Assembly: GCA_963965975.1 (NCBI GenBank)
Contig: OZ014411.1
Location: 27,762,249-27,826,248, forward strand
Source: Xestospongia bergquistia
Taxonomy: Eukaryota > Porifera > Demospongiae > Haplosclerida > Petrosiidae
Length of the DNA stretch: 64,000 nucleotides
Direction: 5' to 3'
Under the pieces are notes generated by a model that had not been told where the DNA came from, made no database searches, and was given only the letters and a program-made list of their open reading frames with translations. Below are positions 28,819 to 64,000 of this stretch, in pieces. The number at the start of each line of letters is the position of its first letter. Position 1 is the stretch's first letter. The translations under genes were made by a program, and so were the position numbers.

Positions 28819-31800
28819 ATCACTTTAACTCTCTCTGCACTACTCCATCAAGTGGTTTGTGTTGTCTACTATGTGACACCTAACAATGGTAACCAGAGTT
28901 GTCCCGTTGAGCAAGAGTGTCACACTCTCTCCTATTACATCAATAACGTTGCTTTACCCTCCAATCTTACTCTTCTATTTATGAATGGTGAACACATCAT
29001 TAAAAGAAATGAAGGTCTTCAAATAGAGGGTCTTAACAATGTAACATTTCTTGGACAAGGTCAGTGGGTACATGGTTTTCATTGGTCAGTTATGCAGTCA
29101 AGCGTTATTATTAAATGTATTAGCAATGTATCAACTGCTATTAAAGTATCTGTCACATCTGCAATTCATATTGATGGGCTGACTATCAATGATTGTCATA
29201 GAGGTATTTTCATTGCCTCATGTGTAAATGTTCAGTTGAATAACTTATCAATACAAAATAGCAGTCATGTTGGTTTAATGATTATGAATACAAATATTGT
29301 TAATATTAACAATTGCTCCTATAGTCATAATGGAGTCAATGTATACTTGATTTTCATTAAAACCATCACAATCAGTTACTCTAACTTTACATTTGGATAC
29401 GATCTATACAACTATCAAGAAAGTACTGGGATTTTTATACTAAACGAAGATAGCTTGTCTAACGAAAGTAGAAGAATTGAAATATCTACTTGTTTGGTTT
29501 GTTTAAATAATGGAGGTGGTGCATTTATACACAGCAATATTATTGGAAATCAAGCAGTCATTATACAAAACACCATCTTTAGCAATAACATTGGAAATAG
29601 AAGTGTTGGAGGTCTGCGTGTATGGATATCGACAAAAAAGGGTCATTCAGAAATTGTCATTAGTCAGGTCATATTTTCATATAATATAGCAGCTGTAAAG
29701 TCCTTCATTGTGGGAGGAGCAGATCTGACTATTTTTAGTGGATCAAATAGTACCGTCATTATACAAAACACTACTTTTAGAAATAACATAGCTACAAACA
29801 AACCAAAAAGTGGACATTTATTTGTAACAATAAAAGCAAATGGTCACACCAAGGCTAACATCAGTCAAGTTATATTTTCTTCTACAGAAATGGAGTATCT
29901 GAATGTAATAGGAACTGTATTTTATGTAGTCAGTGAATCTTCCTGTACTTTCATTATGCAAAATATTACCTTTACAGAAAACAGCTTACTATTCCATTTA
30001 GAAAGAGCCCATAAAATACAGGCTAACATTAAAGATATGAAATTTTCATCTAACATTGGGACCACAGCAGGAGCTTCTATATACATGGCTAGTGATTGTA
30101 TTTCTGCTAACAAAAGTTTACATTTACAAAATATTGCATTTCACAATCAAACTGGAAGGGCTCTTTTAATAGAAGGTAATGCTAAAATTGAATTAACAAA
30201 CATTATTATTGCAAACACATATAGTAGAGCTAATTCTCAACCAAATCAAAATTTAGGAGCCTTACAATTGCTATGTTATAATCCCAGACAAACAGTGATG
30301 CTCTCAAATGTTCATGTAGTTAATAATGACATGTCAGGTCTTTGGATAAAAGGATGTCTAGTTTTTTTCAAATATAAATCTAGTATCATTGCTGAAAATA
30401 AATCACCCAGTAATGGTGGTGGTATATATGCTGATGACAACACTTGCTTGTCTTCTTCAGTTGGTGTTCACTTCATCAATAACACAGCTACATTATATGG
30501 TGGAGCAATTTATTTCACAACAAATGTAGTACAAGCATATTATATCTCAAGTGTGAATTATTGCTTTTTGTGCTCCTTTTCTGCTTTTAACGTCACATTT
30601 TCGCAAAATTATGCTGGTCTCACTGGAAATGATATATATGGTGCGTATTACTTTAATCCTAATAGTCTGTACATACCCAATTTTATTGATGTTGTCACAT
30701 GTAGTTCTGATTATTTCAAAGATCCTAACTTTTACTTTTGTTTCCCTAAACATCTGTCATTATCAATATCTTCAGCTGCAATTGGTGCTTGTCTTTGTAC
30801 TAATGATACTTACATGGACTGTAGTAGAAGAGTATATAAAATGGAGTCATATCCTGGGCAGACTATTACGTTGTCTCTTGTGACAGTTGGGATATGTGGA
30901 GGTATAAGTCCTAGTCAGCTACTAACAGACAGTACAGGAATTGATGTTACCTTTAATGAAGTTGACCAAGTGACTCATATTTATTGTAAAAACTTTACAT
31001 ACCTATTAAAAGTCCATTTAGCTCCTACTGAAGGAAATATCACAATTCAAACTAGTGAATCACTTTATTTGAAGGAGTCAAATTTGACTATCAGCATCAA
31101 AATGTTACCATGTCCCATAGGACTTGAATTGAATAATTTAACAGGGATGTGTGAATGTAATGACATTGTCAATGCTGTTAAAGCACAATGTGACATATCT
31201 CAGTTGCCATATCCAATTAAAAGGTTTGGAAATAACTGGTTATCATACAATAAAGAATATGATTGTATCATTGCACATGATGACTGTCCATTTGATTATT
31301 GTAATACTTCTCTGATTTCATTCAATCTCAATAACTCTGACTTTCAGTGCACTCATAATAGGTCAGGTATACTCTGTGGACAGTGTCAATCAGGACTTAG
31401 TTTAATGTTAGGATCTAACAAATGTGGAGTCTGTACAAATCACTACTTAACATTGATAGCAGCTTTTATATTTGCTGGATTGTGCTTATGTGTGCTTATG
31501 TTAACATTGAATTTAACTGTGTCTGTAGGAAGTATTAATGGTTTACTTTTCTATGCTAATATGATCAAATTGAACAGATCACTTTTATTCTCCAGTGGAC
31601 GAATTCCAGTACTGAGTCAATTCATTGCTTGGCTTAGTCTTGATCTTGGTATTGAGACATGTTTTTTCAATGGACTAGATGGTTACTGGAAAACATGGCT
31701 ACAGTTTGCATTCTCACTATCACTGATTACTGGTTTAATAATCTGTTGTAGATATTTTGGAAAATTGTCTCGTTTATGTGGCAATAATGTTGTACCTGTT

Positions 31801-32625
31801 TTGTCAACACTAATTTTAATGGCTCATTCTAAACTTTTACTTACTATTAAAAATGCCCTCATGTTAAGCAGAGTCCAATGTGAACATACAGTATGGAATG
31901 TTTGGAGTGTGGATGGTAACATTAAATATCTTCATGATAAACACATACCACTGTTTGTGGTGTCATTAATCTTCCTTTTCTTTGGAATTATCTATACTGG
32001 ATTGATATTATCTGGTCAATGGCTACAGCGTTACACTGGTAAGTACTGTAGAAGTTCCATTGATCCGTTCATTTTACTAAAACCTTTTATTGATGCTTAC
32101 AATGGTCCCTATAAAGACAAGTATCAATTCTGGACAGGACTTCTTCTAATGATACGTTTGTTTGTCACTGGTTTGTTTGCTGTTACTACAGGGATTGTAC
32201 CACAAGTTAATAACTACGTAATCACTATTATTGTAATCATTCTATTACCAGCTAGTAGAGGTATATATAAAGTGAAAACTAATGCAGTTTTAGAAACGTT
32301 TTTTCTTTTAAATTTGGGTTTCATCAGTCTGCTGAATACAATAACTAATCATACTACTTTCACATATTGGGTAGATTTAGTATCAATTGGTCTATCATTG
32401 ATAGTGTTTACTGGAATAGTACTAGTTCATATCTACATGTGCATTAAAAGAAAATGTATTAGCAAAATCAATGTCTTTAAACGAAGGAATCAGACAAATG
32501 TAGATGAGTCGTTATTACAAGAGAGATCATCTGAAGGTCAGGCAGAACAATATTCTCCAGCTCACACTCTTTTGAGAAGAGAGTCTTTAATACTTGAGTT
32601 TGAAATACCTGAATTAAAATATTAA
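28819..32625 (+). CDS. Beta-helix multi-span surface receptor, family member A
   Basis: One open frame of about 1269 codons to TAA at 32623. No in-frame ATG precedes residues that must belong to the ectodomain; the first is at 28981. The frame becomes signal-like (ITLTLSALLHQVVCVVYYVT) just after TTTCCTTTAAATATCAG, a good acceptor, so a short 5' exon with the start codon is expected upstream and was not found. Domain order: SCPVEQECHTLSYY motif; long Asn-rich beta-helix-like ectodomain with many N-x-S/T sites; Cys box with CPIGLEL, CPFDYC and LCGQCQSGLSLMLGSNKCG; then about eight or nine hydrophobic spans from about 31440; loop KPFIDAYNGPYKDKYQFWTG; tail with DESLLQE. It is the most diverged copy in the cluster and has no NCTIYNN repeats. 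AATAAA lies just after the stop. Plasma-membrane adhesion or recognition is inference. Confidence 0.85.
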   Translation: MTLTLSALLHQVVCVVYYVTPNNGNQSCPVEQECHTLSYYINNVALPSNLTLLFMNGEHIIKRNEGLQIEGLNNVTFLGQGQWVHGFHWSVMQSSVIIKCISNVSTAIKVSVTSAIHIDGLTINDCHRGIFIASCVNVQLNNLSIQNSSHVGLMIMNTNIVNINNCSYSHNGVNVYLIFIKTITISYSNFTFGYDLYNYQESTGIFILNEDSLSNESRRIEISTCLVCLNNGGGAFIHSNIIGNQAVIIQNTIFSNNIGNRSVGGLRVWISTKKGHSEIVISQVIFSYNIAAVKSFIVGGADLTIFSGSNSTVIIQNTTFRNNIATNKPKSGHLFVTIKANGHTKANISQVIFSSTEMEYLNVIGTVFYVVSESSCTFIMQNITFTENSLLFHLERAHKIQANIKDMKFSSNIGTTAGASIYMASDCISANKSLHLQNIAFHNQTGRALLIEGNAKIELTNIIIANTYSRANSQPNQNLGALQLLCYNPRQTVMLSNVHVVNNDMSGLWIKGCLVFFKYKSSIIAENKSPSNGGGIYADDNTCLSSSVGVHFINNTATLYGGAIYFTTNVVQAYYISSVNYCFLCSFSAFNVTFSQNYAGLTGNDIYGAYYFNPNSLYIPNFIDVVTCSSDYFKDPNFYFCFPKHLSLSISSAAIGACLCTNDTYMDCSRRVYKMESYPGQTITLSLVTVGICGGISPSQLLTDSTGIDVTFNEVDQVTHIYCKNFTYLLKVHLAPTEGNITIQTSESLYLKESNLTISIKMLPCPIGLELNNLTGMCECNDIVNAVKAQCDISQLPYPIKRFGNNWLSYNKEYDCIIAHDDCPFDYCNTSLISFNLNNSDFQCTHNRSGILCGQCQSGLSLMLGSNKCGVCTNHYLTLIAAFIFAGLCLCVLMLTLNLTVSVGSINGLLFYANMIKLNRSLLFSSGRIPVLSQFIAWLSLDLGIETCFFNGLDGYWKTWLQFAFSLSLITGLIICCRYFGKLSRLCGNNVVPVLSTLILMAHSKLLLTIKNALMLSRVQCEHTVWNVWSVDGNIKYLHDKHIPLFVVSLIFLFFGIIYTGLILSGQWLQRYTGKYCRSSIDPFILLKPFIDAYNGPYKDKYQFWTGLLLMIRLFVTGLFAVTTGIVPQVNNYVITIIVIILLPASRGIYKVKTNAVLETFFLLNLGFISLLNTITNHTTFTYWVDLVSIGLSLIVFTGIVLVHIYMCIKRKCISKINVFKRRNQTNVDESLLQERSSEGQAEQYSPAHTLLRRESLILEFEIPELKY

Positions 32626-34857
32626 AGTCACTATTAAATAAAATAATAGAATACAATCATCATTGTAAATTTATTACATAGTACTTTTTGTTTGAAATCA
32701 TAGCAAGTACACTAGAAAATGTAAACTGTTTGCCTCATACAACTGCTGAACTAAACACTATTCTGTTGATATTGATAGGATGTCCATTCCTACTTTGGGC
32801 TTGTTTGAGATGTTTCTTCTGCCATCTCTACATTTAATGAGTATTTTGAAATTGTAATTTACTTGTTACATTTATTATTTACACTTTTATATTGCAATAA
32901 ATTGAAAGTAAAAATGTACCTATAATTCCACATTCATTAAAAACGTTTTGGTTTCAAGAGATATATAAGATTGGTAAGCAGACAAAAAGGTAGCTCCCCA
33001 TTACTCCTGAGATTCTTAGACAAATTCGCCTACAATTGTAGAAAAAACAAGAAGTTCCCAGACATTGTTATGTCTTTCACAGCTATTTCAGGTCTCTCAG
33101 GATGTGTATTAAATAGTAAAGCATACCAGTACAATGTCTTGATAAAAAGGTTTCATTGTAAAAAGATAATTACTAGCATTGTGCAATAATTCAAGATTTG
33201 GTCATTGCAGTTAATAAGGTGCTAAAAAATCCTACTACAATTAGTTTCAATTTAAAAATTAATTAATTGAAGATGATGAATAACTAATACATACCTATCG
33301 TACTGGCCACACCTATGTTGAGATCACTGTACGTTGTGTATCTGTGCAATGCAGGGAATCTCTGCTTAGGAGAGCTATGATGTCATACATGTATTGATCT
33401 CATACTCCTGCTTCACAAAGAGAGGAGACAGCAATTGATTAAAATGTACAAAATTAAAGAAAAATATTATGAGGGATTAAAACAGTATACATGACATCAT
33501 GTTTCATTGTTTATAGTTTACATTTGTAATATAATATTTAAGTTATTTTATAGTTCTAAATATTATATATACTCTTAATATGAGCTAAAACAAGTCCATT
33601 ATGGTATTGTTTCTAGTAGGTATATGAAGCATTATTGGTACAGTGGGACTGTGTGCACTAAAGGATTTTGCAACAATAGTGTGTGTAAATGAGAAGCCAA
33701 AGAGTGCTAATTTTTTGAATGTGGTCGTTGTATTTACTACTGACAGAGATGGATTAGATAATATTTCAACAAATAAGTCTAACTCAGTGCCAGCTGTATT
33801 AGTCATATACATACTGGCTATAATATTATGTCACATCATTACTATATTTATTGTATTAGACTGAGATCACAGTTTTAAAGATTGAAATGAATGAAATAAT
33901 AACTAGGATAGCCTAATATTAAAAGTCAATAGTTAAAATGATACAATACATTTTTGATGGCTCAATTATAATAACACTTACTACACAAATAAAGAAAACA
34001 ATCAAATATACTAACTAATTACTTAAAATGTATTGCATCATTTTAACCATCCATTTTTATTATGGCTATCATATTTATTAATTCATTAATTTCAATCCTT
34101 ATCACAGCTATGTCAAATGTATAAGAGGGTGTGGCTTCACTAGTGGGTGTACCACAAACACTAGTCTTCATAATGTGCTCATTTAAATTGGATTAACTAA
34201 TATTTCTACAAATTAGTCTAACCAAGTACCTACTGTTTTAGTCATGTATATAATGGCTATAGTACAACATTGTATCATTACTATATACACCTATTGTATC
34301 TATATTATAATTATAATATTTGGAAATGTTACTATAATATGAATATTGTATTATTTAAGTAATCCATAAACATTGAAATATGGTGTCATATATGTTCAAT
34401 ATATATGTAAGAGTAAATGTAATGTTGATATAATTAATTGTCTTCCTTAATAATCTGCTCATGTAAGCACTTTCTCTACTATCACAATAATGGAAGTAAT
34501 AATATTCCAATCATTACATTCAGAGGCATCAAGAACACTTCAAAGCCCTGACTAAGGTTGTCATATTCTCTTTTAGGCCTCCCGTCATATGTCAACTGGA
34601 CATTATTGACACAAAGCCAGGAACAATAGATTTCTAAAGGAAGACAACAGAGACAACTTGCACACTCCTTCATGAGAATATGACTTTTTTATAGAGCAAA
34701 CATGTTTGTGTGTGTGGGTGATGGGTGTGTGAGGTGTGGATGTACTTGTATTACACATTATATTATTGTGTGTATATATATAATCTAATTAAGGAAGCAG
34801 TTCTTAGAGTTTATGCATCATAACTAATTCAGCCATTTGTCTTCTAAACTGTCAACA
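32626..34857. other. 5' flank of member B; segmentally duplicated
   Basis: No gene. From about 33110 onward the DNA matches the flanks of other members: AGCATACCAGTACAATGTCTTG recurs near 61960; the GTTGAGATCACTGT / ATGTCATAC block (33310-33400) recurs near 50670 and 62175; GTCCATTATGGTATTG (33595) recurs near 48310, 50940 and 62450; CTTTCTCTACTATCA (34465) recurs near 48995 and 62910. A G/T-rich block with TATATATA and AAGGAAG (34700-34800) precedes the start codon of every plus-strand member except A. Confidence 0.75.
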
Positions 34858-37800
34858 ATGTTTTCTAGTTCTTTTGGACATCCTGCCATCATTACCTGGT
34901 GTCATATCTATTATATAACATCAGCTATTCTTTATATCTTCAGTGGAAATGCTATTGCAAATGAATATTATGTCTCTGCAGCTCCCAATGGAATACTTTG
35001 TCATTCTACTGACCTACTTTGTCACAGCCTTATCATTCTTACTTCACTGATGATGTAATCTTCTACTTCCTAGAGGGAACTCATACTCTACAAGGTATAT
35101 TAGAGATCACTAATATAAGTAATATAACTTTACAGGGACTGGGTCATATAGAACAAGGTTTTCATGAGACAGTTATGCAATCTACCTCAGTAATAATGTG
35201 TAGTGATAACAAGAGACCTGCTGGTATTAAATTTATAACTAGTAAAAATATTGTAATGAAATCATTAACAATAGCAAATTGTGCATCTGATGCTTACATC
35301 TCTTACAAAAAAATTGTCAATAGTTTACATTTTGTTGATGTCAATGATGTCACATTGGAATGGGTATCAGTCCAGAATGGTTCAGGTTATGGACTCTGTC
35401 TAGTCAATAATTTCAATGTGCTAATCACTAATTCCTCCTTTGCTAACAATGGACATCCTGGGACGTTTGGAGGCAATGCATGTATATATAAACTATGATG
35501 ATAATCTTAAAAGCTTGTCCAGAGTTAATATTGTGCAAACAAATTTTACACTGAGTTTAGGATATACACTTTTTTCGATGCATGATTCTGATGTTAAGGT
35601 AATCATTGAAAACAGTGAATTTTCATACAATATTGAAGGAGGAATATATATTGACTCACAAGGTTATGGCAATATTGAGTTTCATAGCTGCACTATACAT
35701 AACAATAACAATGCTGAGTATAATAATGGAGGAGGCTTGTCAATTGATTTATATGGAAATGATAGTATTGAGTTTATTAACTGCACTATACATAACAATA
35801 TGGCTCAGTATGGTGGAGGAGGCATATACACCTATTTGCTTGGGAATGGTAATATTGAGTTTCATGACTGCACTATATCTAACAATAGTGCTCAGAGTTA
35901 TTATGGAGGAGGAGTGCTCATTAATTTGTATGGAAATGGTAGCATTGAGTTTCATAACTGCACTATAAATAACAATACTGCACAATATGGAGGAGGAATG
36001 CATATCCATTCGGGCAATGGTAGTATTCAGTTCTATAACTGCACTGTATATAACAATACTGCTCAGGATACTGGAGGAGGAGTGTATATTGATTTAAATG
36101 GGAACGGTAGTTTTGAGTGTCATCACAGCACCATACATAACAATACTGCTCAGGAAAATCAAAGGGGAGGAGGAGGAGTATATGTTTACTCAATAAATGG
36201 TAGTATTGAGTTCAATAACTGCACTATATACAAAAATACTGTTCAGAATGCTGGAGGAGGAGTGGTGATTGAGTCAGTGGGGAATGGTACGATTGAGTTT
36301 CTTAACTGTACTGTATACATCAATACTGCTCAGAAGAATGGAGGAGGTGTACACATTTCTTCAGAAGGAACTGGTAGTATTAACTTTAGTAACTGCACTA
36401 TATATAACAATACTGCTCAGCATGCTGGAGGAGGAGGAGTGTACATTTACTCAGAGAATGGTGGCATTGACTTCTATAACTGCACTATATACAACAATAC
36501 TGTTTGGCATGCTGGAGGAGGAGTGTGGATTGAGTCATTTGGTAACGGTAATATTGACTTTCTTAACTGCACTATACACATCAATACTGCTAAGAGATAT
36601 GGAGGAGGGGTATACATTTATTCAGACAGAAGTGGTAGTATTAGGTTTAGTACCTGCACTATATATGACAATACAGTTCATTATGCTGGAGGAGGAGGAG
36701 TGTACATTTACTCAATGAATGGTAGTATTGACTTCAATAACTGTACTCTATACAACAATACTGTTCAGTATGCTGGAGGAGGAGGAGTGTTGATTGAGTC
36801 ACGTGGAAATGGTAGTATTGATTTTTGTAACTGCACAATATACATCAATAGTGTTCAGAAGTTTGGAGGTGGCATATATATTTATTCAAATGGAAGTGGT
36901 GATTTTAACTTTAGTAACTGTATAATATACAACAACACTGCATACTTTGGATCAGGTTTGCTTCTGTATGGTCATCGCTTTACTTCAACAACTAGATTTC
37001 ATTTTACAAATGTTTCATTTCATTTTAATCAAATATCTGACAGGAATGATCTCTATAAAGCTGCTGTTGTATTAGTTAATATTTATAATATTGTTTTTGA
37101 CCACATTGAAGTTAGTAATCATGACACAACTGGTTTAGTTAGTTTAAATAGCGTATTAACATTTGACAAAAATAGCACATTTGCAAACAATTCAGGCATT
37201 TATGGTGGGGGTATTGCCTTATATGAATCCTCTCAATTATTACTAAAAAACTTAACATATATATCTTTTGTCAATAATCATGCTAGTGAGTCAGGTGGAG
37301 GAATCTTTGTATCACAACTACTTGTTGAAGACATTTATACAACTTGCTCCTTTCAAGTCATTAGTGATAATGGTAATGCTTGGTTATATTTTGTTAACAA
37401 TGCAGCTAACATCTCAGGTGATGTCTTGTATGGAGGAAAAATCAATAATAATTGTACCTTTGATAAACTATTTCACTACCATCAACAAAAAGGTCTATCA
37501 GTAGTGTCATCAGATTCTATTCAAGTGTGTTTTTGTGTATCACACATACCAAATTGTTCTATTCCAAACAAGAATGTTACAGTAATGCCTGGGATTGATG
37601 TTAATATATCACTAGCTACTGTTGGCTCAAAGGATGGCTTAACAAAGGGTGTGATAAAATTAACATCATCAGATAATTCATCCATTGTGCTAGTAGACAA
37701 TAATAGACTAAATGCAACTTGTACTAATGTAACCTTCAAATTAACCGCAAATCCTGATTTGTTAAATGCTACAGACCTCTATGCAACACAAATTTCAATC

Positions 37801-39408
37801 ATTAAACCTTTACAAGACCATCATGCTAAAGTCATTAATGTTATCATTGAGTCTTGTCCAATTGGGTTACTATTAGTGAATGATACTTGTGTTTGTAGAT
37901 CTGAATTAAATACACCTCCAATATCTTGTGATTTTAACACTCAAATTATAACAAGAGATGGTGACATGTGGATTGGTTATAAAAATAATTCAGACTGTCT
38001 TATTGTTTATCAAAACTGTCCCTTTGATTATTGTAATGACGATATCATTCATTTTAAACTCACATCACCTAATGTACAATGTCTTTATAATCGATCTGGA
38101 CTACTCTGTGGACAATGTGCTAAAGGACTCAGTCTCATGTTAGGTTCCAATCAATGTGGACAATGTACTAATGACTACTTAGCTCTTATTATTCTATTTG
38201 CTGTAGCTGGTATAGTAATGGTAGCTTTTGTTATTATTTTAAATCTAACTGTGTCTGTGGGTACAATCAATGGACTTATATTCTATGCTAATATTATCAA
38301 ATTATATGAACACTTTTTCTTTCCTAATAGTCACATTCCATTTGTTAGTCATTTCATTTCATGGATTAATCTAGATCTGGGTATTGAGACTTGTTTCTAC
38401 AATGGTATGAATTCTTGTTATAAGACATGGCTACAGTTTATATTTCCAGGCTATGTTTGGTTCATCCTAATACTCATTATAATATTATCAAGATATTCTA
38501 GCAAAATAGTTCAGCTTGTTGGAAGACAATCTATTCCAGTACTAGCCACTATGATCCTACTTTCTTATACCAAACTGATACGAACTGTTTTCCAGGTCCT
38601 TCATTATACCAATATTTATTGTAGGGGTAATAATAGTGTCACATTATTGAGGTGGTACATTGATGCTAATGTTCAATATTTCAAAGGTTGTCATCTACCA
38701 TTGTTCCTATTTTCACTATCTGTACTCATTTTAATAATTGTTCCATATACCTTCTACCTCCTCACTATACCATTATTTGAAGGACCTCTATCAAAGTACA
38801 TGTGCTGCTGCCAAAAGTTGATACATTATATGAAGCCTTTCTTTGATGCATATGGAGGTCCATATAAGGACAAGTGTCGTTTTTGGACTGGATTTTTACT
38901 ACTCGTTCGTGTTGTCTTAGCACTTGTTGTTTCTCTGGATACTCAGGCTACTATAAGTTTGGATGTGTTAGTATCTGTTTTATTTGCTATTGTATCAATG
39001 TATTTTCTTTTAAGAGGAATATATCGAAAGTTACCATTGGCTTATCTGGAGATGTCCTTTATTCTTAACCTCATGTTTATGGGTTATGTGAATGTATCCA
39101 CACAAACATTTAAAATGTCAGAGTCAAGTAATGTGTTAAGTGTTGCTATGGTGTCAGTATCATGTGTAGTATTCTGTGGTATTATCCTCTATCATGTCTG
39201 GGATCGAATGTTAAAGTCTCATTTACAAAAATTAATTACAAGAGTCAAAAGGATATTCAAGAAGCCTGCATCATTTTTTAATTATGATGATGCAGAAATT
39301 CCTTTAATGCATCCTGGATCCCCTTCTTTTATATGTGAAACTAGTTCAGTGTCAGTGGTGTCAGTTGAAATGCCACGAGAACCACTATTGTTTGATGAAG
39401 ATGACTAA
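34858..39408 (+). CDS. Beta-helix multi-span surface receptor, member B, frame broken twice
   Basis: ATG at 34858 aligns with the start of the intact paralogue at 51376. Against that paralogue it lacks 19 bases near 35025-35045 and gains 4 near 35480-35495. The frame thus moves to a second frame for about 150 codons and then returns to the first, net minus 15 bases; read strictly it stops at 35056. The rest (to 39408) is open for over 1300 codons. Domains: anchor/signal (YYITSAILYIFSG), TLQGLGHIEQGFHETVMQST, 15 beta-helix coils (about 35663-36957), CPIGLL / CPFDYC / LCGQCAKGLSLMLGSNQCGQC box, about eight spans, loop KPFFDAYGGPYKDKCRFWTG, tail EPLLFDEDD. Recent pseudogene, assembly error, or use of a later start are all possible. 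Confidence 0.85.
35663..36957 (+). repeat. Fifteen coding beta-helix coils, last nine as three 261-bp units
   Basis: Each coil is 25-29 codons of the form N-G-S-I-E-F-x-N-C-T-I-Y-N-N-T-A-Q-x-x-G-G-G-V-x-I. The Cys-Thr or Ser step and Asn ladders are those of right-handed parallel beta-helices. The TACTCA string that begins a coil occurs at 36187, 36448 and 36709, exactly 261 bp (87 codons) apart, so three coils form a higher-order unit present three times. The GGAGGAGGAG runs are likely slip and recombination points. Confidence 0.9.
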
Positions 39409-40027
39409 CACTAATTTTGATGACATTTTGTTAATTACATATCACTCATATTTGTCATGTCTTATCTATAATAGTAGTGTACTAACAATAATATGAAACC
39501 TCTACAGTATTAACAATTACTTTATTCAAGTTTTACAATGTTCTGGACTCTGTGTTATTGTTTGTTACCTTTTTTATTACAACAATCAGTTGATGTTGAC
39601 ATATATGCAGTGACCAATCATTGGACAATTACAAATAGTGTATATGTCACATCTCATCTTAAATGCTACTGCTTATCAAGTGGACATATGACAGACAGCA
39701 AGCTTTTAAGGTGATAATACAGTACATAAACACATATGATTAGTAGTAGATGTAGAGACTAGATAATTAAATCTCTTCCATTTTGCTTAGAAATGTAGTT
39801 CTGAAACAAATATTTTTATTATTTAAAATGGCGTTAATACTAATTATATTATTAATTATTAAGAACAATAGCTGAAAACGAAAATATCATTGTTCCTACT
39901 TTGCACACCAATATTACTGTAGATATAATTATATGAATCAATGAAAATGTGCATTTAATAATTGTGTGAAATTACAAACAAATTCAAACCACTGGCCTAT
40001 ACATCATAGTTAATTTTAATGGTAACT
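39409..40027. other. Convergent 3' flanks of members B and C
   Basis: No gene. The first 350 bp resemble the DNA after the stop codons at 49820 and 55152 (ATTTTGTTAATTACAT, then ACAATGTTCTGG-like, later CTTATCAAGTGGACA and AGCAAGCTTTTAAGG), so the 3' flank was duplicated with the genes. Confidence 0.7.
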
Positions 40028-43000
40028 TCAGTAGTCATCATATATCATTGATTCTCGAGCAACAATTTCAGTAATTTCATATGCTGCCAAATGATTTCTT
40101 ATATCTTCATCTTCATGATCAATGAGAAGGGCTTCAACTTCTTGTTGAGAATGTGCCAGAGGTCTTTGCTTCCGATATAAAATATTGTTTTGCAGTTTCT
40201 TTACTGGGTTGTAGTTTTCAATACGAAGGTACACATGATAACAAATAACACCCACAAATATCACAAATGCTATTGAAAGTACTACTTTGCATGTGACAGT
40301 GGTGTTATTGTCAGCATATGCTGATATGGCACTAAGAAGACCTAAGAAAAGTGTTTCAATTAAATTGTTATACCATTTCCGGTATACTCCTCCAAAGTTG
40401 GCAATAAGAGTTACAATAAAAAGAACACAGGTCATAATTGTAGCAGTTGTTATACTTGTATTATTATTAAATGATGCCAGTAATAACAGTATTAACCTGA
40501 TAACCAGCAGTAATCCAGGCCAAAAGCGATATTTGTCTTTAAATGGTCCACCAAATGCATCAAAAAATGGCTTTATTTTATATAAAAATCCACATCCTCT
40601 AAAATTGCTGACACGCCACTCTAACAGTTGTATAGACAACAGTATTATTGTAAATGGAGTAATCAGGATGCATACAACAGCAATTGCAAATGCAAAGAGG
40701 ATGATATGTTTGACAGACAAGTATTCAATGTTAGGATCCATGTACCAAGAATAATGAGTAATACTTTGACCATACTTATATTTAGCAAATGATAATGCTA
40801 ATGTAACAGCACGTAGTAGTTTCATATAAGAAAGTAGAATAAGTGTAGCCAAAACTGGAACAGTATTGTGGCCAATAATACGACCTAACTTGGTATTCTC
40901 AGCAAGAATTATAATTATGATAATGATGGCCCATATATAAAATGGAAAGGCGAATTGTAGCCACACTTTGATATAACTATCCATACCATTGTAGAAGCAG
41001 GTTTCAATACCGAGGTCAAGATTTAGCCAAGAAATGAATTGACTCAAAATTAATATAGGCCCAGAAGGAAAGAAAATGGCTTCATTTAACTTGATAATGT
41101 TAGCAAAAAAGATAAGTCCATTAATCATTCCAAGGGACACAGTGAAGTTTAATAGTAACAAGAAAATCACCAGAGCAATTCCAACTACAGCAAATACTAT
41201 GAGGAGAGCAAAGTATGAGTTAGAACAACTTTCACATTTGTTAGAGCCTAATAAAAGGCTCAATCCATCAGCACATTCACCACATAATATACCAGCTCTA
41301 TTCAGAGCACACTGGACATCAGGATTTGTAATATTGAAAGCTACCAACGATAACAAACAATAGTCAAATGGACAATTTTTATGAGCAATAATGCATTCTT
41401 TGTCAATGTTATATCCCATCCAGACATTTCCTTCTTTTGAGATAGTTTGAGAGGAAGCATTACATTGAGTAGTACTTAAAACAGACAACAACTCACTGCT
41501 ACAGCCACAATGTCCAGAGTTAAGTAGAAGCTCAAATCCAGGTGGACAATCTAGTATTGTAATATCGACAGTTATGTTTGTCTCTAAGGACGTGGGCACA
41601 TTTGCAATAGATATTTTTAGCTTTGAAATATTTGCAACAATATTAGCATTATTCTTCACACTGACAGTGTAGGAAAGGGGTTGACAATATTGTTGCCATG
41701 ACATCAATGTTTGACCTATTTCCTCTCCTTCTATGACTGTAACGACTTTTAAAGTACCAGTAGTAGTACCAAATCTTTGACCCACAGTTACCACAGGTAT
41801 GCTAACAATTTCACCAGGATAACCATTAATCATTACAGTATCCATGTTACAGTCTGGTTGTAAATGGCTACAGAAACATGCTCTGAGGGCATCAGATGCT
41901 ATGACACTTACATCACTGCCATTAGATAAAGAATATTGAAATGTTAGATTAAACTGATAACTACTGTTTTGATAATCCCAAGAGTTTGAAAGTTGGAGAC
42001 AATAATCAATGTCACCACCATACAGTACTGACCCTGATATCTCAGCTGTATTGTTAATACAGTGAATGCCGTAAGTATCATTTGTAAGATTGGTAGGATA
42101 AAATGTAATTTGAAGAAGACAATAGTTATCTAGTTGACTTGACCTATCAATGAAAATAGCTCCTCCAAACTTATTAGCATGATTATCAATGAATTTTATA
42201 ATTGCTGGATAAAGTGGCATTAAAAAACTAGTTCCATAAAAGGATATTCCGCCCCCTTTGATGCCAGTGTTATTAATGAAATAGTTTTTTCCTGTAACAA
42301 CAACAGCAGAGTTTACAACAATTGCACCACTAGCATCATTATCTCTTACAGTTAGTCCATTTATTGTAACATTGTACACAGAAGAAATATAGAGTGCAGA
42401 ACCAGTAGAATTATCATCATAATAATGAGCTAACAGATTTTGCATAGAGTTTTCTATTGATACGTTTTCCATAATGTAAGAAATAGGTGCACCAATACCA
42501 ATAATTTGTCCAAATAAGGAAATACCTATTCCCATCAACCCAATATTACTATGTAGAAGTACATTTCTCAAGAATACATGTTGTAACAAATTAGATTTTT
42601 GAAGGTAGAGTATGCCTATAGCACCTGCACTACCACATTGATTGTGTAGAAAAGTACTGTTCACTATTTTGATTGGTGCATTAGTATATTGTAGTCTGTC
42701 ATATCCACAGCATGTGCAGTATGGATATATACCAGTTCCAGAACCAATGATTGCATAGAAAGCACTGTATTGCGCATAGTAGAAAAAAGAATTACCAGTT
42801 GATGCCAATGGATATACCATATTGCCATAGCTACTATTAAGGTGAGAAATTGATACAGTGTAATAAGTGACCGTAGCCATTACAGTTAAGGCTATGTTAC
42901 CACCAAATACTGCTGTGTTGCCATATGATACTACATTGTCTATGACTAAATCTACTCCATATACTGCAGTCTGTTCCATAAACACTAGCAAACCACCACT

Positions 43001-43792
43001 TAAATGATAAATGGACTTAGGTTCATCCATATTAGTACCAAATGAAACATTGGTACTGACTATACTTGCTTTATAGACAGTGGGCCTAGATGGACACTCA
43101 AATGGGTTGGTATATAAGATGGCTAAGTTTGCTCCATGACAAAACAGTATTGGACAGCCTTCAAAAAATGTATTAAGATTGTTTTGTGAAAAGGATGAGT
43201 TATAAATTTGTAAATCAAAAGCATTGAAAGCTAAAAGGCCATATCCTGAATTGTTTAGAGCTGAAAACTCTTGAACTGAAAAACTATGAACCTCAGCAAT
43301 GATCACAGTCGCATTATCAAAACTAAAGTGAGATGCTCCTGCACGATATTTTGAAAGATTTATAAGGTAGTTTAAAATTTGTATGTTGTAAAAAATTGGC
43401 CGTCCACACTGTCTTATAGTCAATGACCGTAATGTTATATTAGATGAGAACATGAACAAAATATTTGACGTACGTGATTCACAAGTAATGACGGTTGTAG
43501 ACTCCATCACTGTCTCATGTAACCCTTGTTCTCTCCTACCTAGTCCTTGCAGCATGAGGTTAGTAAGGTGAATAAAGAGATAGGTCTGATGTGAAGGAAT
43601 AACATGAATGCCATCAATGAAGTAGAAGGTGGTGTTAGATTTGAAATAGTCATTCTTATAATAGTAATCCAATGTATGACAGCTCGTGTTACTTGGACAA
43701 TTGCTGTCATTATTCCTAGGATGTACATAGTACTCATGAGCATTAGAGAAGATAACACTCGCAATAATAAGAAAAAACGCACCACAAAACAT
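40028..43792 (-). CDS. Beta-helix multi-span surface receptor, member C, intact
   Basis: A single open frame of 1254 residues on the minus strand. ATG at 43792 is followed by a clear signal peptide (MFCGAFFLIIASVIFSNAHE), which supports this start. Order: NCPSNTSCHTLDYY (about 32-45), FYFIDGIHVI, LMLQGLGRREQGLHETVMES, beta-helix-like ectodomain rich in N-x-S/T without the NCTIYNN array, Cys box with CPPGFELL (about 750), CPFDYC (about 807) and LCGECADGLSLLLGSNKCESC, about eight or nine membrane spans from about residue 856, loop KPFFDAFGGPFKDKYRFWPG (about 1071), tail EALLIDHEDED. Only member on this strand; it converges with B. It shares architecture but little sequence with B and D outside the membrane part. 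I cannot name the family with certainty; similar invertebrate proteins get automatic names after bacterial polymorphic membrane proteins because of the beta-helix. Confidence 0.92.
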   Translation of the reverse strand: MFCGAFFLIIASVIFSNAHEYYVHPRNNDSNCPSNTSCHTLDYYYKNDYFKSNTTFYFIDGIHVIPSHQTYLFIHLTNLMLQGLGRREQGLHETVMESTTVITCESRTSNILFMFSSNITLRSLTIRQCGRPIFYNIQILNYLINLSKYRAGASHFSFDNATVIIAEVHSFSVQEFSALNNSGYGLLAFNAFDLQIYNSSFSQNNLNTFFEGCPILFCHGANLAILYTNPFECPSRPTVYKASIVSTNVSFGTNMDEPKSIYHLSGGLLVFMEQTAVYGVDLVIDNVVSYGNTAVFGGNIALTVMATVTYYTVSISHLNSSYGNMVYPLASTGNSFFYYAQYSAFYAIIGSGTGIYPYCTCCGYDRLQYTNAPIKIVNSTFLHNQCGSAGAIGILYLQKSNLLQHVFLRNVLLHSNIGLMGIGISLFGQIIGIGAPISYIMENVSIENSMQNLLAHYYDDNSTGSALYISSVYNVTINGLTVRDNDASGAIVVNSAVVVTGKNYFINNTGIKGGGISFYGTSFLMPLYPAIIKFIDNHANKFGGAIFIDRSSQLDNYCLLQITFYPTNLTNDTYGIHCINNTAEISGSVLYGGDIDYCLQLSNSWDYQNSSYQFNLTFQYSLSNGSDVSVIASDALRACFCSHLQPDCNMDTVMINGYPGEIVSIPVVTVGQRFGTTTGTLKVVTVIEGEEIGQTLMSWQQYCQPLSYTVSVKNNANIVANISKLKISIANVPTSLETNITVDITILDCPPGFELLLNSGHCGCSSELLSVLSTTQCNASSQTISKEGNVWMGYNIDKECIIAHKNCPFDYCLLSLVAFNITNPDVQCALNRAGILCGECADGLSLLLGSNKCESCSNSYFALLIVFAVVGIALVIFLLLLNFTVSLGMINGLIFFANIIKLNEAIFFPSGPILILSQFISWLNLDLGIETCFYNGMDSYIKVWLQFAFPFYIWAIIIIIIILAENTKLGRIIGHNTVPVLATLILLSYMKLLRAVTLALSFAKYKYGQSITHYSWYMDPNIEYLSVKHIILFAFAIAVVCILITPFTIILLSIQLLEWRVSNFRGCGFLYKIKPFFDAFGGPFKDKYRFWPGLLLVIRLILLLLASFNNNTSITTATIMTCVLFIVTLIANFGGVYRKWYNNLIETLFLGLLSAISAYADNNTTVTCKVVLSIAFVIFVGVICYHVYLRIENYNPVKKLQNNILYRKQRPLAHSQQEVEALLIDHEDEDIRNHLAAYEITEIVARESMIYDDY

Positions 43793-49330: not shown

Positions 49331-49820
49331 ATGCTCTCTTATTTATGGAGACATTTTAGACCCACTGTCTTTATTAGCTGATGTCATATCTATTATATAA
49401 CATCAGTAATATTGTATATCTACAGTGGATCTGTTCCTGTTAATGAATATTATGTCTTCTAATGGAGTACCTTGTCCTACTACTGATCTACCTTGTCACA
49501 ACCTCTCTCACTATGTTGCTGATTATAATTTAAACTCAAGTCATGTGTTCAGTGTTGCTATGGTGTCAGTATTGTGTGTAGTATTCTGTGGCATTATCCT
49601 CTATCATATCAGGGATCGAATGTTAATGTCTCATTTACAAAACTAATTAGAAGAGTCAAAAGTATATTTAAGAAGCCTGAGCCTTTTTTTTCATTTCTGA
49701 TGGTACAGAAGTTGCTTTAATTCCCCTAGATCTCCTTCTATTATATGTGAAACTAGTTTAGTTTCAGTTGTGTCCGTGGAAAAAAGACGAGAGTCATTAC
49801 TGTTTGATGGAGATAAGTAA
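49331..49820 (+). pseudogene. Receptor family copy with the middle deleted (F)
   Basis: The first 65 codons correspond to the start of member D, but a TGG codon reads TGA and bases are lost after TATTATGTC. At about 49530 the sequence jumps from VADYN directly to the last membrane span (FSVAMVSVLCVVFCGIILYH) and the tail, ending TAA at 49820. About 1100 codons are missing. 5' and 3' flanks are both of the cluster type, so this is an internal deletion of a full copy rather than a partial duplication. Confidence 0.85.
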
Positions 49821-51375
49821 TGATGATTCTAATAACAATTTGTTAATTATATGTCATTTATATTTGTCATATTTGATATATAATAATAGTGTAGTAACAA
49901 CAATTAGAAATTATACTGTCTTATCTATTATTTCATTCAAATGTTACAATGTTCTATTTATTGTATTATTGTTGCCTACTTTTTTATTGTAACAATCAAT
50001 TTATTTTTGCATATATTTTGTAAAAGATACTTAATAATTACAATCGGTTTACATGTCACCCTCTTACCTTATATTTGACTGCTTATCATGTGGACACATG
50101 ACACAGAGCAAGCTTTTAAGGTTGTAATACAATACATAAACATGTTAAGTTAATAGTGGATATACAAACTAGATGTTTAACAACTTTTCCATTTGTATTA
50201 GAAATATATATTATAAAGTTTTCTCACTGATCAATAAAGGAGTGGATGGTATATATCACCATATACATTAGATTAGAATGACTGTGATATCTATGATATC
50301 ACTAAAATTTTGACTGACAAGTAGTCTTTAGCTTGAATAGTATCAATATGATATCATCACTATGTATATAGTTTTGCTTGTTGCAGTTACATTTCTTAGT
50401 CATTTCATCTCATGGCTTAATCTAGATCTGGATATTGAGACTTGTTTCTACATTGGTATGAATTCTTGTTATAATACATGGCTACAATTTATATTTCCAG
50501 GCTATGTTTGGTTTCTTTTAATACTTATCATAATATCACCACCATATAATTAGTCTTGTTAGTTGGACATATGTACTAATATAGGACTACAGCTAATATC
50601 TACAATATAATGTAGAGTCCTTTATGACATAAGAAGCATAATTAATAGACATTATCTAACACAACCTACACACCAAATGTTGAGATCATTGTGTATTGTA
50701 TATTTGTACAATGCAGAGATTTCTACTTTGGAAACTATTATGTCATACAGATACTGGTCTCATACCCATGTTGGAGGAGTGTCAAGTTGATAGGAAAACC
50801 CAAAATTAAGGAAAGACATTAAAGGATTTAAAAATATACATGACACCATGTTTCAATGTTTATAGTTTATATTTGTAATATAATATTTAAACTATACTGA
50901 TAGTTCCAAATATTATACTCTTACTATGAACCAAAACTAATCCATTGTGGTATTGTATACAGTACATATAAGAAACTATTATTAGTACAGTGGGACTGAA
51001 TGTAGTAGATGATTTGGCAACTCTATTGTGTGTTATTAAAGACAACAAGTAGACAGTAATGCTTGTCTTTATAATGTGGTCATTGTATTTACTACTGATT
51101 GAGTTGGATTGCATAATATTTCAACAAATAAGTCTAACTCAGTACCAGCTGTATGTAGATACTATCTATAATATATAACATCATTACTATATTTTGTGTT
51201 TTGTGTATATGCATGTGCAGCTGTGTGTGTAGCTTTGGGTGTGTAGGATGTGGATGTACTTGTAGTAGATTATCGTATTCTATATATATAGTATCTAAAT
51301 AAGGAAGAATGTTTACAGTTCTTGCATATTGTTGCATAATTAATTCAGCTGTTGTTTCTCTAAGCAATATCTACA
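49821..51375. other. 3' flank of F, fragment G and 5' flank of member D
   Basis: Left: 3' flank like those at 39409 and 55153. Right (from about 50660): the cluster 5' flank, with GTTGAGATCATTGT, AGTCCATTGTGG-type and AAATAAGGAAG blocks. Apart from the fragment at 50386 no coding DNA is seen. Confidence 0.7.
50386..50553 (+). pseudogene. Isolated membrane-span fragment of the receptor family (G)
   Basis: Fifty-odd codons match the middle of the membrane part of member D: TFLSHFISWLNLDLDIETCF, then YIGMNSCYNTWLQFIFPGYV, ending in a stop at 50553. Nothing of the family adjoins it on either side for hundreds of bases. Confidence 0.8.
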
Positions 51376-54300
51376 ATGACCTCTATTTCATGTAGTTCTT
51401 TCGGACACATTGCCATCAATAGCTGGTGTCATATCTATTATATAACATCAGTTATACTGTATATCGTCAGTGGAATTGCTACTGCAAATGAATATTATGT
51501 CTCTGCAGCTCCGAATGGAGTACCTTGTCAACCTACTGATCTACCTTGTCACAACCTCTCCTACTATGTTGCTGATTATAGTTCTTACTTCACTGATGAT
51601 ACAATCTTCTACTTCCTAGAGGGGACACATACTCTACAAGGTATATTAGAGATCACTAATATAAGTAATATAACTCTACAAGGACTGGGTCACATAAAAC
51701 AAAGCTTTCATGAGACAGTTATGCAATCTACCTCAGTAATAATGTGTAGTGATAATAAGAGAGCTAGTGGTATAAAAATTACCACTAGCAAAAGTATTTT
51801 AATGAAATCATTAACAATAGCAAATTGTTCATTTGATGCTTACATCTCTGACAAAAAAATTGTCAATAGCTTACATTTTGTTGACATCAATTATGTCACA
51901 ATGGAATGGGTATCAGTCCAGAATGGTTCAGGTTATGGACTCTGTCTAGTCAATAATTTTGATGTGTTAATTGCTAATTCCTCATTTGCTAACAATGGAC
52001 AACCTGAGAGTTTTCGAGGCAATACATATATATACTATGATAACCAGCTTAAAAACTTGTCCAGAGTTAATATTGTCCAATCAAATTTTTCAATGAGTTT
52101 AGGATTTGTACTTTATTTGATGTATGACTCTGAAGTTAAGGTAATTATTGAAAACAGTGAATTTTCACAAAATATTGGAGGAGGAGTGCTCATTGATTCA
52201 AGTGGGAATAGTAATATTGAGTTTAATAACTGCACTATATATAACAACAATGCTAAGTATAATGGAGGAGGAGTGTCAATTAATTTGCATGGGAAAGATA
52301 GTATTGAGTTTAATAACTGCACTATATACAGCAACAATGCTAAGTATAATGGAGGCGGTGTATACATTTCTTCAGACAGAAGTGGTAGTATAAGGTTTAC
52401 TAACTGCACTATATACAACAATACTGTTCAGTATGCTGGGGGAGGAGGAGTATACATTATGTCAATGAAGAGTATGAATGGTAGTATCGATTTCAATAAC
52501 TGCTCTATATACAACAATACAGTTCAGTATGCTAGAGGAGGAGGAGTGTCCATTGTGTCACGTGGTAATAGTAGTATTGGGTTTTGTAACTGCAGTATAT
52601 ACATCAATACTGCTTGGTTGAAAGGAGGAGGTGTACACATTGATTCGGGCGAAAGTGGTAGTTATAAGTTCAGGAACTGCATAATATATAACAATACTGC
52701 ATACCTTGGAACAGGTATGCTTCTTGTTGCTTCTAGAACTAGCTTTCTTTTTATAAATGTTTCATTTCATTTCAACAAAGTACACAACAAAAAATATGTA
52801 CATGAAGCAGCTGTTGTATTAGTCAACATTCATGATGTAATTTTTGAACAAATTGAAGTTAGTAATCATGACACAACTGGTTTAATGAGTCTCAATAGTA
52901 TAATAACATTTGAAAAAAATAACACATTTGTAAACAATTCAGGTATATATGGTGGGGGCATTGCCTTATTTGAATACTCCCAATTATTATTAAAAAACCA
53001 AACAAACATATCATTTGTCAATAATCATGCTAGTGAGTCAGGTGGAGGAATCTTTGTATCACAAATACTTGCTGAAGATATTGATAAAAAATGCCTCTTT
53101 CAACTTAATTCTCATAATGCTAATGCTTCATTGTACTTTGTCAACAATACAGCTAATATCTCAGGTGATGTCTTGTATGGTGGAAATATTAATGATTGTA
53201 GGTCTGATGTTTTTCATTACAATGAACAAAGAGGTCTATCAGTAGTGTCATCAGATCCTATTCAAGTCTGTTTTTGTGGATCAGACAAACCAAATTGTTC
53301 TATTCCAAACAGGAAAGTTACTGCAATGCCTGGAATTGATGTTACTATACCACTAGCAACTGTTGGTTTTAAAGAAGGCTTAACAAAAGGTGTGATAAAA
53401 GTGACATCATCAGATACTTCAACCATTGTTTATACCAACAATAATAGACTGAATGCAACCTGTACTAATGTAACCTTCATATTAAGTGCAAATCCTGACT
53501 TGTTAAATGCTACAGATATCTATGTAACAATTGACAATTTAATCATTGATCCTTTACAAGACCATATGGCTAAAGTCATTAATGTTACCATTGAATATTG
53601 TCCAATTGGGTTTATAATGGTGAATGATGCTTGTGTGTGTAGATCTGTATTAAATACACCTCCAATATCTTGCGATATTAACTCTCAAATTATAACTAGA
53701 TATGGGGATGTGTGGATTGGTTATAAAAATAATTCAGACTGTCTTATTGTTTATCAGAACTGTCCCTTTGATTATTGTAATGATAATACCATTCATTTTA
53801 AAGTTACATCATCCAATGCACAATGCCTTCACAATCGATCGGGACTACTCTGTGGACAATGTGTTGAAGGACTCAGTCTCATGTTAGGTTCCAATCAATG
53901 TGGACAATGTACTAATGACTACTTAGCTCTTATTATTCCATTTGCTGTGGCTGGTATAGCACTGGTAGTTTTTGTTATTATTTTAAATCTAACTGTGTCT
54001 GTGGGTACCATCAATGGACTTATATTCTATGTTAATGTTCTCAAAATATATGAACAATTTTTCTTTCCTAATGGTCGCATTCCATTTCTTAGTCATTTTA
54101 TTTCATGGCTTAATCTAGATCTGGGTATTGAGACTTGTTTCTACCATGGTATGAATTCTTGTTATAAGACATTGCTCCAATTTATATTTCCAGCCTATGT
54201 TTGGTTTCTCGTAATACTCATCATAAAATTATCACAATATTCCAGCAAAGTGGTTCGACTTGTTGGAAGACAAGCCATTCCAGTACTAGCCACTATGATT

Positions 54301-55152
54301 CTACTCTCTTATACCAAACTGATACGAACTGTTTTCCAGGTTCTTCATTATACCAATATTCAGTGTGAGGATGATAATGATGTCACATTACTGAGGTGGT
54401 ACACAGATGCTAATGTTCCATATCTGAAACGTTGTCATCTACCATTGTTCCTGTTTTCACTGGGTGTACTCACTCTATTGATTGTTCCATACACCTTCTA
54501 CCTTCTTGCCATACCATTATTTGAAGGACCTCTATCAAAGTACATGTGCTGCTGCCAAAATTTGTTAAAGTATATAAAACCTTTCTTTGATGCATATGGA
54601 GGTCCATATAAAGACAAATGCCGTTTTTGGACTGGATTTCTACTACTCATTCGTATTGTTTTAGCACTGGTTGTGTCTCTTGATACTGAAGCTATTATGA
54701 GTTTAGATGTCTTAGCATTTATTTTATTTGTTATTGTATCATTGTATTTCCCTTTGAGAGGAATATATCAAAAATTGCCATTGGCTTGTCTAGAGATGTC
54801 CTTTATTCTTAACCTCATGTTTATGACCTATGTAAATGCATCTACACAAACTTGTGAAATGTCAAAGTTAAGTCAACTGTTAAGTACTGCTATGGTGTCA
54901 TTATCTTGTGTAGTATTCTGTGGCATTATCCTTTATCATGTCTGGGACCTTCTGTTAATGTCTTATTTACATAAATTAATTACATATGTCAAAAGTATAT
55001 TCAAGAAGCCCGAACCATTTTTTAATTTTGATGGTGCAGAAGTTCCCTTAATCCGTCCTGGATCCCCTGCTGTTACATGTGAAACTAGCTCAGTGTCAGT
55101 GGTGTCAGTAAAAATGAGACGAGAATCATTACTGTTTGATGAAGATGACTGA
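51376..55152 (+). CDS. Beta-helix multi-span surface receptor, member D, intact
   Basis: A single open frame of 1258 residues. ATG at 51376 follows CAATATCTACA, the context seen before the start of every related copy. Hydrophobic signal/anchor at about 20-38 (CHIYYITSVILYIVSGIATA), then PCQPTDLPCHNLSYY, FYFLEGTHTLQ and TLQGLGHIKQSFHETVMQST. Six NCTIYNN-type coils at about residues 275-446 belong to a longer beta-helix ectodomain with many N-x-S/T sites. Cys box CPIGFIM (about 741), CPFDYC (about 795), LCGQCVEGLSLMLGSNQCGQC region. Eight or nine membrane spans from about 851; loop KPFFDAYGGPYKDKCRFWTG (about 1068); tail ESLLFDEDD. The best whole model of the B/D/E/F/H subgroup. A cell-surface receptor or adhesin is inferred; the ligand is unknown. 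Confidence 0.93.
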   Translation: MTSISCSSFGHIAINSWCHIYYITSVILYIVSGIATANEYYVSAAPNGVPCQPTDLPCHNLSYYVADYSSYFTDDTIFYFLEGTHTLQGILEITNISNITLQGLGHIKQSFHETVMQSTSVIMCSDNKRASGIKITTSKSILMKSLTIANCSFDAYISDKKIVNSLHFVDINYVTMEWVSVQNGSGYGLCLVNNFDVLIANSSFANNGQPESFRGNTYIYYDNQLKNLSRVNIVQSNFSMSLGFVLYLMYDSEVKVIIENSEFSQNIGGGVLIDSSGNSNIEFNNCTIYNNNAKYNGGGVSINLHGKDSIEFNNCTIYSNNAKYNGGGVYISSDRSGSIRFTNCTIYNNTVQYAGGGGVYIMSMKSMNGSIDFNNCSIYNNTVQYARGGGVSIVSRGNSSIGFCNCSIYINTAWLKGGGVHIDSGESGSYKFRNCIIYNNTAYLGTGMLLVASRTSFLFINVSFHFNKVHNKKYVHEAAVVLVNIHDVIFEQIEVSNHDTTGLMSLNSIITFEKNNTFVNNSGIYGGGIALFEYSQLLLKNQTNISFVNNHASESGGGIFVSQILAEDIDKKCLFQLNSHNANASLYFVNNTANISGDVLYGGNINDCRSDVFHYNEQRGLSVVSSDPIQVCFCGSDKPNCSIPNRKVTAMPGIDVTIPLATVGFKEGLTKGVIKVTSSDTSTIVYTNNNRLNATCTNVTFILSANPDLLNATDIYVTIDNLIIDPLQDHMAKVINVTIEYCPIGFIMVNDACVCRSVLNTPPISCDINSQIITRYGDVWIGYKNNSDCLIVYQNCPFDYCNDNTIHFKVTSSNAQCLHNRSGLLCGQCVEGLSLMLGSNQCGQCTNDYLALIIPFAVAGIALVVFVIILNLTVSVGTINGLIFYVNVLKIYEQFFFPNGRIPFLSHFISWLNLDLGIETCFYHGMNSCYKTLLQFIFPAYVWFLVILIIKLSQYSSKVVRLVGRQAIPVLATMILLSYTKLIRTVFQVLHYTNIQCEDDNDVTLLRWYTDANVPYLKRCHLPLFLFSLGVLTLLIVPYTFYLLAIPLFEGPLSKYMCCCQNLLKYIKPFFDAYGGPYKDKCRFWTGFLLLIRIVLALVVSLDTEAIMSLDVLAFILFVIVSLYFPLRGIYQKLPLACLEMSFILNLMFMTYVNASTQTCEMSKLSQLLSTAMVSLSCVVFCGIILYHVWDLLLMSYLHKLITYVKSIFKKPEPFFNFDGAEVPLIRPGSPAVTCETSSVSVVSVKMRRESLLFDEDD
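52200..52720 (+). repeat. Six coding beta-helix coils in member D
   Basis: Same coil type as at 35663-36957 but only six. Coils three to six match coils 12-15 of member B (for example SDRSGSIRF), so D carries about one copy of the three-coil unit that B has three times. A nine-base insertion (encoding K-S-M) lies in coil four. Confidence 0.88.
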
Positions 55153-61800: not shown

Positions 61801-61939
61801 CAAATTTACTGTTTTCTGTGTCCTAAAAAAATGTTGATATGTAGGATCGATTTAATTCTGAAATTTTGATACAAATGTACTTGGCAATTGCTGACTGAAT
61901 TATTGAAATATAGAGTATAATGTAAGGGAGGAACTTGGG

Positions 61940-63701: not shown

Positions 63702-64000
63702 ATGTTCTCTTATTCTAGTAGTTATTTTGGATCATCTACCATTATTAGCTGGTGTCATATCTATTATATAACATCAGTTATACTTTATATCTTCAGTGGA
63801 TGTGTTACTGCTAATGAATATTATGTCTCAGCAGCTTCTAATGGACTATTTTGTCATTCTACTGATCTACCTTGTCACAATCTCTCCTACTATATTGCTA
63901 ATTATGATACTTACTTCACTGATGATGTAATCTTCTACTTCCAAGAGGGAACTCATACTCTACAAGGTATATTAGAGATCACTAATATAAGTAATATAAC
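63702..64000 (+). CDS. Beta-helix receptor, member H, 5' part only (cut by window end)
   Basis: ATG at 63702 after AGAATCTACA; the frame is open through the last base (99 codons and two bases). It reads MFSYSSSYFGSSTIISWCHI, a hydrophobic segment (YYITSVILYIFSG), ANEYYVSAAS, FCHSTDLPCHNLSYYIANYD and FYFQEGTHTLQ, the N-terminal order of member D. No lesion is visible so far, including at the two places where B is broken. Whether the rest is intact cannot be seen. Confidence 0.88.
   Translation, partial: MFSYSSSYFGSSTIISWCHIYYITSVILYIFSGCVTANEYYVSAASNGLFCHSTDLPCHNLSYYIANYDTYFTDDVIFYFQEGTHTLQGILEITNISNI

Follow-up and report, generated by a model that had tools for sequence, protein, structure and literature searches.

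A very large family of proteins joining a variable beta-helix to a conserved membrane module in the sponge Xestospongia bergquistia, with a candidate role in surface sensing

The genome of the demosponge Xestospongia bergquistia (146.5 Mb in 21 contigs) contains a very large family of proteins in which a variable N-terminal beta-helix is followed by a cysteine box and a strongly conserved multi-span membrane module. Its assignment to Metazoa agrees with Wnt matches, which occur at three of its loci and are absent from 14 control genomes. The family is described here from a stretch of 64,000 nucleotides (C1:27762249-27826248, referred to as the window), which holds three intact copies (A, C and D), a copy with two frameshifts (B), a copy cut by the window end (E) and three fragments. 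The combination that characterizes an expanded receptor family, namely a large, tandemly expanded repertoire whose outer part varies while the membrane part stays constant, is found. The reading that we favour, and hold to be somewhat better than an even bet, is that these proteins form a very large repertoire of cell-surface sensors, in which a variable beta-helix would serve as reader and a constant module of probably nine spans as transducer.

The beta-helix ectodomain had been proposed in an earlier, sequence-only reading of the window, and it is supported by profile matches, a structural model and fold neighbours. The Pfam Beta_helix profile (PF13229, cut-off 25.9 bits) matches B with 102.1 bits (E 3.1e-29) and D with 72.1 bits (E 5.1e-20), and stays below the cut-off in A (17.6 bits) and C (18.7 bits). 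In addition, Chlam_PMP scores above its cut-off in B (5.5e-08) and in the distant member L066 (0.00027), and POMP_repeat does so in A and D, with none in C. Structure prediction of D, the check suggested in that reading, was carried out with AlphaFold2 on an alignment of the four window copies only. The repeats were modelled as the coiled strands of a beta-helix, with 24 of the 32 ten-residue blocks between model residues 191 and 510 reaching a mean predicted local distance difference test score (pLDDT) of at least 70 (range 50-93); the mean over the whole D model is 48.8. The best-modelled part of the D beta-helix lies at 52060..53019 on the + strand (D residues about 229-548). The best 50 of the 209 Foldseek matches to D include antigen 43, a “bacterial self-associating protein”, phage tailspikes and mannuronan epimerase; two of the 209 have an E-value of 0.001 or lower, and the query TM-scores of 0.06-0.25 mark the fold class only.

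The rungs of the helix differ in number between paralogues. In B, which carries the longest rung array of the window, Tandem Repeats Finder identified units of 81-87 bp, the 87-bp form being present in 13.6 copies at 35666-36858, and the arrays of D are shorter. Among 34 rung units from seven copies, a G-G-G turn and the core positions I, F and N are nearly fixed and the intervening positions vary, a conservation that is partly by construction because the pattern used to choose the units partly fixes their first five positions. Four places on contig C11 (1076107, 1098693, 1126898 and 1303321) lie in much longer frames of 1719-1943 amino acids, which possibly correspond to longer rung arrays. 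The N-terminal part is expected to form a secreted, right-handed beta-helix rod, whose residues and rung number differ from one paralogue to the next and whose ligands would probably include glycans or the surfaces of microbes or of conspecifics.

The rod would be linked to the membrane module by the cysteine box. In an alignment of 20 modules, from subfamilies at 38-85% identity to D, the seven cysteines ahead of the first span are invariant (20/20), and two later cysteines are present in 20 and 19 members, respectively. The 112 best of the other places have a module 70-87% identical to that of D. In D, the cysteine box (starting with CPFDYC) and the nine- or ten-span module occupy 53761..54955 (+). 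DNA coding for PFDYC occurs four times in the window, in the four long copies only, and in none of 100 shuffles.

For the number of spans, given as eight or nine in the sequence-only reading, a hydropathy scan returns 8-14 partly overlapping segments per protein, a few of them outside the module, and the mean hydropathy of the 20 members fits nine or ten. The C-terminal part has long hydrophobic segments, which are helical in low-confidence models. Judged from the sequences, nine spans with the N-terminus outside and the C-terminus inside are probable if the stretch at about module residues 111-128 is no span. Ahead of spans 5 and 7 the loops are basic and free of sequons in 20/20 members, and a sequon precedes span 1 in 20/20. 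The K-P-x-x-D-A-x-x-G-P loop is located in the most basic loop; in D this conserved segment, FDAYGGPYKDKCRFW, lies at 54586..54630 (+) and is proposed to face the cytoplasm. The tail had been described as acidic, which applies to B, C and D but not to A, and a more recurrent feature is the RR[ED]S motif near which the variable tail ends in 15/20 members (RRESLL in D, 55117..55134, +). This motif presumably fits a basophilic kinase site. The loop K-P-x-x-D-A-Y-x-G-P-Y-K-D-K and the RR[ED]S tail would be the likely connection of the module to the cell interior.

No convincing match to the module was found in Pfam, or in the PDB by sequence. The PDB sequence matches were dismissed as chance level (CLN8, 0.14; FAM155A, 0.27; laminin, 4.6; antiporter subunit F, 1.4), as were the Pfam matches to DUF2069 (4/20, best E 0.0012) and LapA (5/20, best E 0.0015), in which a hydrophobic stretch matched by chance and the printed scores lie below the cut-off. 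DUF7630 (PF24633) weakly matches the cysteine box in 18/20 members (best E 0.0041), in L066 and in two distant modules, a likeness that covers 45 positions only and scores below the cut-off wherever a score was printed; the name DUF7630 was not found in the open-access literature. A housekeeping transporter was the kind of match that the sequence-only reading had set against its own proposal, and at the sequence level neither Pfam nor the PDB gave a convincing match to a known transporter family. Scans with one or two short patterns each showed no relative of the module in GTDB genomes or IMG/VR, which is weak evidence by which a prokaryotic or viral origin was set aside. On its sequence, the module may represent a new family of membrane proteins.

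Six module queries run against the genome together located 420 or more distinct places. These are spread over 14 contigs, and 315 of them are in frames of at least 1000 amino acids (median 1267) and 105 in shorter frames. A first stage with D, A and C as queries had given at least 184 places (150 with frames of at least 1000 amino acids), and the addition of L066 and two further members as queries raised the number from 184 to 420. L066 (C8:5594547), reached through a weak match to the Pfam TRP model, has a signal stretch, a Pmp-type repeat above the cut-off, the cysteine box, the spans and the loop “IDAIHGPYKEKLRYW”; it is the one member of the distant groups in which the beta-helix was checked. 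A seventh query brought no new place among 113 rows, which were checked by eye. These counts are lower bounds, because each search scored only the best 112-118 candidates; repeats were removed by eye, short broken pieces were counted, and a place within 900 bases (set of 184) or 1100 bases (set of 420) of another was discarded. The 14 largest clusters comprise 228 of the 420 places, the largest being on C3 (28, 27, 25 and 20 places) and C11 (28 and 16). Five more module places follow downstream of the window, up to C1:27.85 Mb.

The sequence-only reading had counted four full-length copies in the window, which is correct for A, C and D but not for B. Copy A (28819..32625, +; open frame 28729..32625) is a giant exon encoding a signal region, the beta-helix, the cysteine box, the membrane module and the tail. 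Copy C (40028..43792, -), of another subfamily, and copy D (51376..55152, +; 1258 amino acids) are each a single open frame. In copy B (34849..39408, +), the long frame covers 35440..39408 and about 220 N-terminal residues are encoded in two other frames (34849-35031 and 35031-35489), giving two frameshifts near the N-terminus that may be real or an assembly artefact. The copy reported as cut by the window end was recovered as E, which starts at 63702..64000 (+) and reads on into L047 as an open frame of 1379 amino acids from stop to stop. The broken copies, stated to be at least three, are equally present: an N-terminal part (46934..47674, +), a membrane-module piece (50386..50550, +) and a copy in which an internal deletion fuses about 69 N-terminal residues directly to the C-terminal tail (49382..49814, +). 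The joint in this last fragment is of the kind left by unequal exchange or deletion. With regard to the shared architecture, the cysteine box, the hydrophobic spans and the DA[YF]xGP[YF]KDKxxFW loop are common to A, B, C and D, but the C-P..C-H-x-L-x-Y-Y motif, also listed as shared, is present as such in A and C, takes the near form C-Q-P..C-H-N-L-S-Y-Y in D and falls outside the long frame of B.

Each sensor would be made largely from one giant exon, and the usual gene seems to consist of a short 5′ exon followed by this giant exon. Position 28819, where copy A had been taken to start, is the first base after ...TTTAAATATCAG (...TATCAG), a likely splice acceptor, and the frame of A has no Met ahead of its signal stretch; hence its start codon probably lies in an upstream exon. 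The D-type copies D, E, F, G, H and L050 have an ATG ahead of the signal stretch, inside the giant exon. In 10/12 of the places L052-L063 the giant frame opens after a TAG stop, which would fit a splice acceptor, and 5/12 have no Met ahead of the signal stretch, which makes an upstream exon likely; a retrogene origin was rejected on the same two observations. L051 has a stop near its N-terminus, and its frame opens only after a TGA.

The ectodomain is under less constraint than the module. The median synonymous divergence (dS) is 0.43 both in the module and in the membrane-proximal ectodomain (its last 250 residues), whereas the median ratio of nonsynonymous to synonymous divergence (dN/dS) is 0.25 in the module and 0.52 in that part of the ectodomain. 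These medians come from the 77 pairs with dS below 2 in both regions, within a sample of 20 of 33 sequences and 91 of 190 pairs (D-like, A and C). A comparison of the helix with the cysteine box, module and tail combined in seven pairs of long copies gave dN/dS values of 0.41-0.61 versus 0.25-0.40 in four pairs (p 0.008-0.03); in the youngest pair the values are 1.22 (17 silent and 75 replacement changes) for the helix versus 0.67 for the membrane part (p 0.11).

New variants would arise by tandem duplication, by gain and loss of rungs and probably by segmental exchange between paralogues. Duplication is suggested by near-identical neighbouring copies, L016 and L017 (C1:28.145 and 28.154 Mb) being 100% identical over 4083 bp and L025-L027 (C11:0.134-0.146 Mb) 99.8-99.9% alike at a spacing of 6096 bp, which points to very recent duplication or to an assembly effect. 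Some pairs look mosaic. The silent difference between D and E is 0.01 in one 152-codon block and 0.30 in the rungs, and that between G and L051 is 0.03 in the module but 0.29 and 0.39 in two helix regions (3% versus 28-39% when G is compared with both L050 and L051). In a run-length permutation test on 28 pairs, G/L051 (p 0.0004) passes Bonferroni correction, and G/L050 (p 0.0022) is nominally significant. The claim that the family diversifies was thus borne out by the dN/dS contrast, the differences in rung number and the mosaic pairs. Between D (51200-55330) and E (63510-67970, counted on into L047), DNA homology covers the gene and its flanks out to about -180 and +140 bp; farther out it drops off, and the two sequences are no more alike than random ones despite the low silent divergence within the gene. 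Other pairs share scattered patches of flank. Fast turnover of the flanks, conversion confined to the gene and movement of gene-sized units could each account for this drop.

Several observations weigh against parts of the sensor reading. The module model has a pLDDT of 41 and shows no usable fold, so that both the span count and the topology are read from hydropathy and from the charge of the loops. In 7/20 members the tail, which should lie inside, contains sequons, and one member has them in the loop ahead of span 9. The RR[ED]S motif is not universal, since two of the 20 members carry RREP instead and the motif was not seen in L066, the one distant tail that was read. Two of the seven pairs tested for dN/dS, both including G, show no contrast between helix and module, and the excess in the ectodomain could reflect relaxed constraint. 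This may apply above all to the value of 1.22 in the youngest pair, because one of its two copies, L051, bears a stop. Similarly, only one of the 28 pairs passes the corrected test for exchange, and it includes this same stop-bearing copy; the values for D/E (p 0.0148) and E/F (p 0.0234) are nominal only. As a general mechanism, exchange is therefore no more than probable.

Among the alternatives, an adhesion or matrix-anchor family, in which the rods bind each other or matrix glycans, in the manner of bacterial beta-helix proteins that self-associate, and the module serves mainly as an anchor, would fit the presence of antigen 43 and the “bacterial self-associating protein” among the fold neighbours. 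However, the TM-scores of these matches indicate a fold class and nothing finer, and about nine spans conserved at 70-87% identity to D in the 112 best places exceed the needs of an anchor; we consider this explanation improbable. We give similarly low odds to a distant branch of the TRP-like proteins (PF06011), in which the proteins would be ion channels with a cysteine-rich ectodomain, gated by the beta-helix through force or ligand. The motif order of the family, with a cysteine-rich stretch before a multi-span module that carries a PYK..YW-type loop, is what we take to be the order in TRP-like proteins of other eukaryotes, and two places in the whole genome match the Pfam TRP model weakly, a 43-amino-acid frame (E 0.548) and the distant member at C8:5594547 (E 1.18, profile positions 285-392). 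However, the distant member scores 13.8 bits against a cut-off of 28.5, no PDB match was obtained by sequence, and hmmscan at an E-value of 10, whose filters drop most weak matches, reported no TRP in 20/20 group-I modules, in 4/4 distant modules or in L066. Since nothing but a single place at E 1.18, well short of the cut-off, links the family to TRP-like proteins, it was not filed among them; its beta-helix ectodomain also sets it apart.

The clusters and mosaic copies would also be compatible with allorecognition, polymorphic members telling self from non-self between individuals. Allorecognition usually relies on a few highly polymorphic loci, whereas a family scattered over hundreds of loci is better suited to sensing microbes or the environment, and this explanation is possible but not favoured, and a little less probable than the previous two. 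The least probable, to which we attach very little weight, is a drifting expansion, in which copies would be gained by tandem duplication faster than they are lost and most of them would be without a function under selection. The recent, almost identical copies, the fragments, the copies interrupted by a frameshift or a stop and the 105 of 420 places in frames below 1000 amino acids are in line with drift, but long frames are kept in 315 of the 420 places and the module shows a dN/dS of about 0.25 at a dS of 0.43 in the sampled D-like, A and C pairs. The sensor repertoire, with its variable reader and constant module, is the preferred reading.

The family can be set beside two other known systems. 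Its right-handed beta-helix with Pmp-type repeats is reminiscent of chlamydial Pmp proteins and autotransporters, but here a multi-span hydrophobic module and a cysteine box, in an animal genome, replace the outer-membrane barrel, and the Pfam scans gave no autotransporter barrel family of the Pmp or type V kind. Sponge NLRs and SRCR proteins are likewise large, lineage-expanded repertoires, one demosponge study counting 126 genes with NACHT and LRR (PMC12909245). The present family differs from these in its fold and in its constant multi-span module, and no NACHT, LRR or SRCR family turned up in its Pfam scans. A description of the family was not found in a search of the open-access literature at the level of listed titles and the openings of abstracts (subscription papers, preprints and protein databases were outside the search).

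To the left of the cluster, the window contains two galectin domains (PF00337) on opposite strands, at 3397-3777 (+, E 1.6e-31) and 5384-5752 (-, E 7.8e-33), and a subtilase exon (PF00082) at 19191-19430 (-, E 9.1e-08). Neither the tRNA scan nor the Rfam scan of the window found any hit.

Going beyond the sensor reading, it is conceivable, though we put it forward tentatively and at clearly less than even odds, that these proteins constitute an undescribed class of animal receptors or receptor-channels with a Pmp-like beta-helix on a constant module of about nine spans. With 420 or more loci in a single genome, they would form a repertoire for immunity or for sensing the environment, on the scale of the chemoreceptor families of other animals, and would diversify as rungs are gained or lost and segments exchanged. 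The finding is relevant to the sensing of microbes, food and one another in early-branching animals, and a repertoire of this size, in which the reader varies and the membrane part does not, would be testable by copy number, expression and ligand assays.

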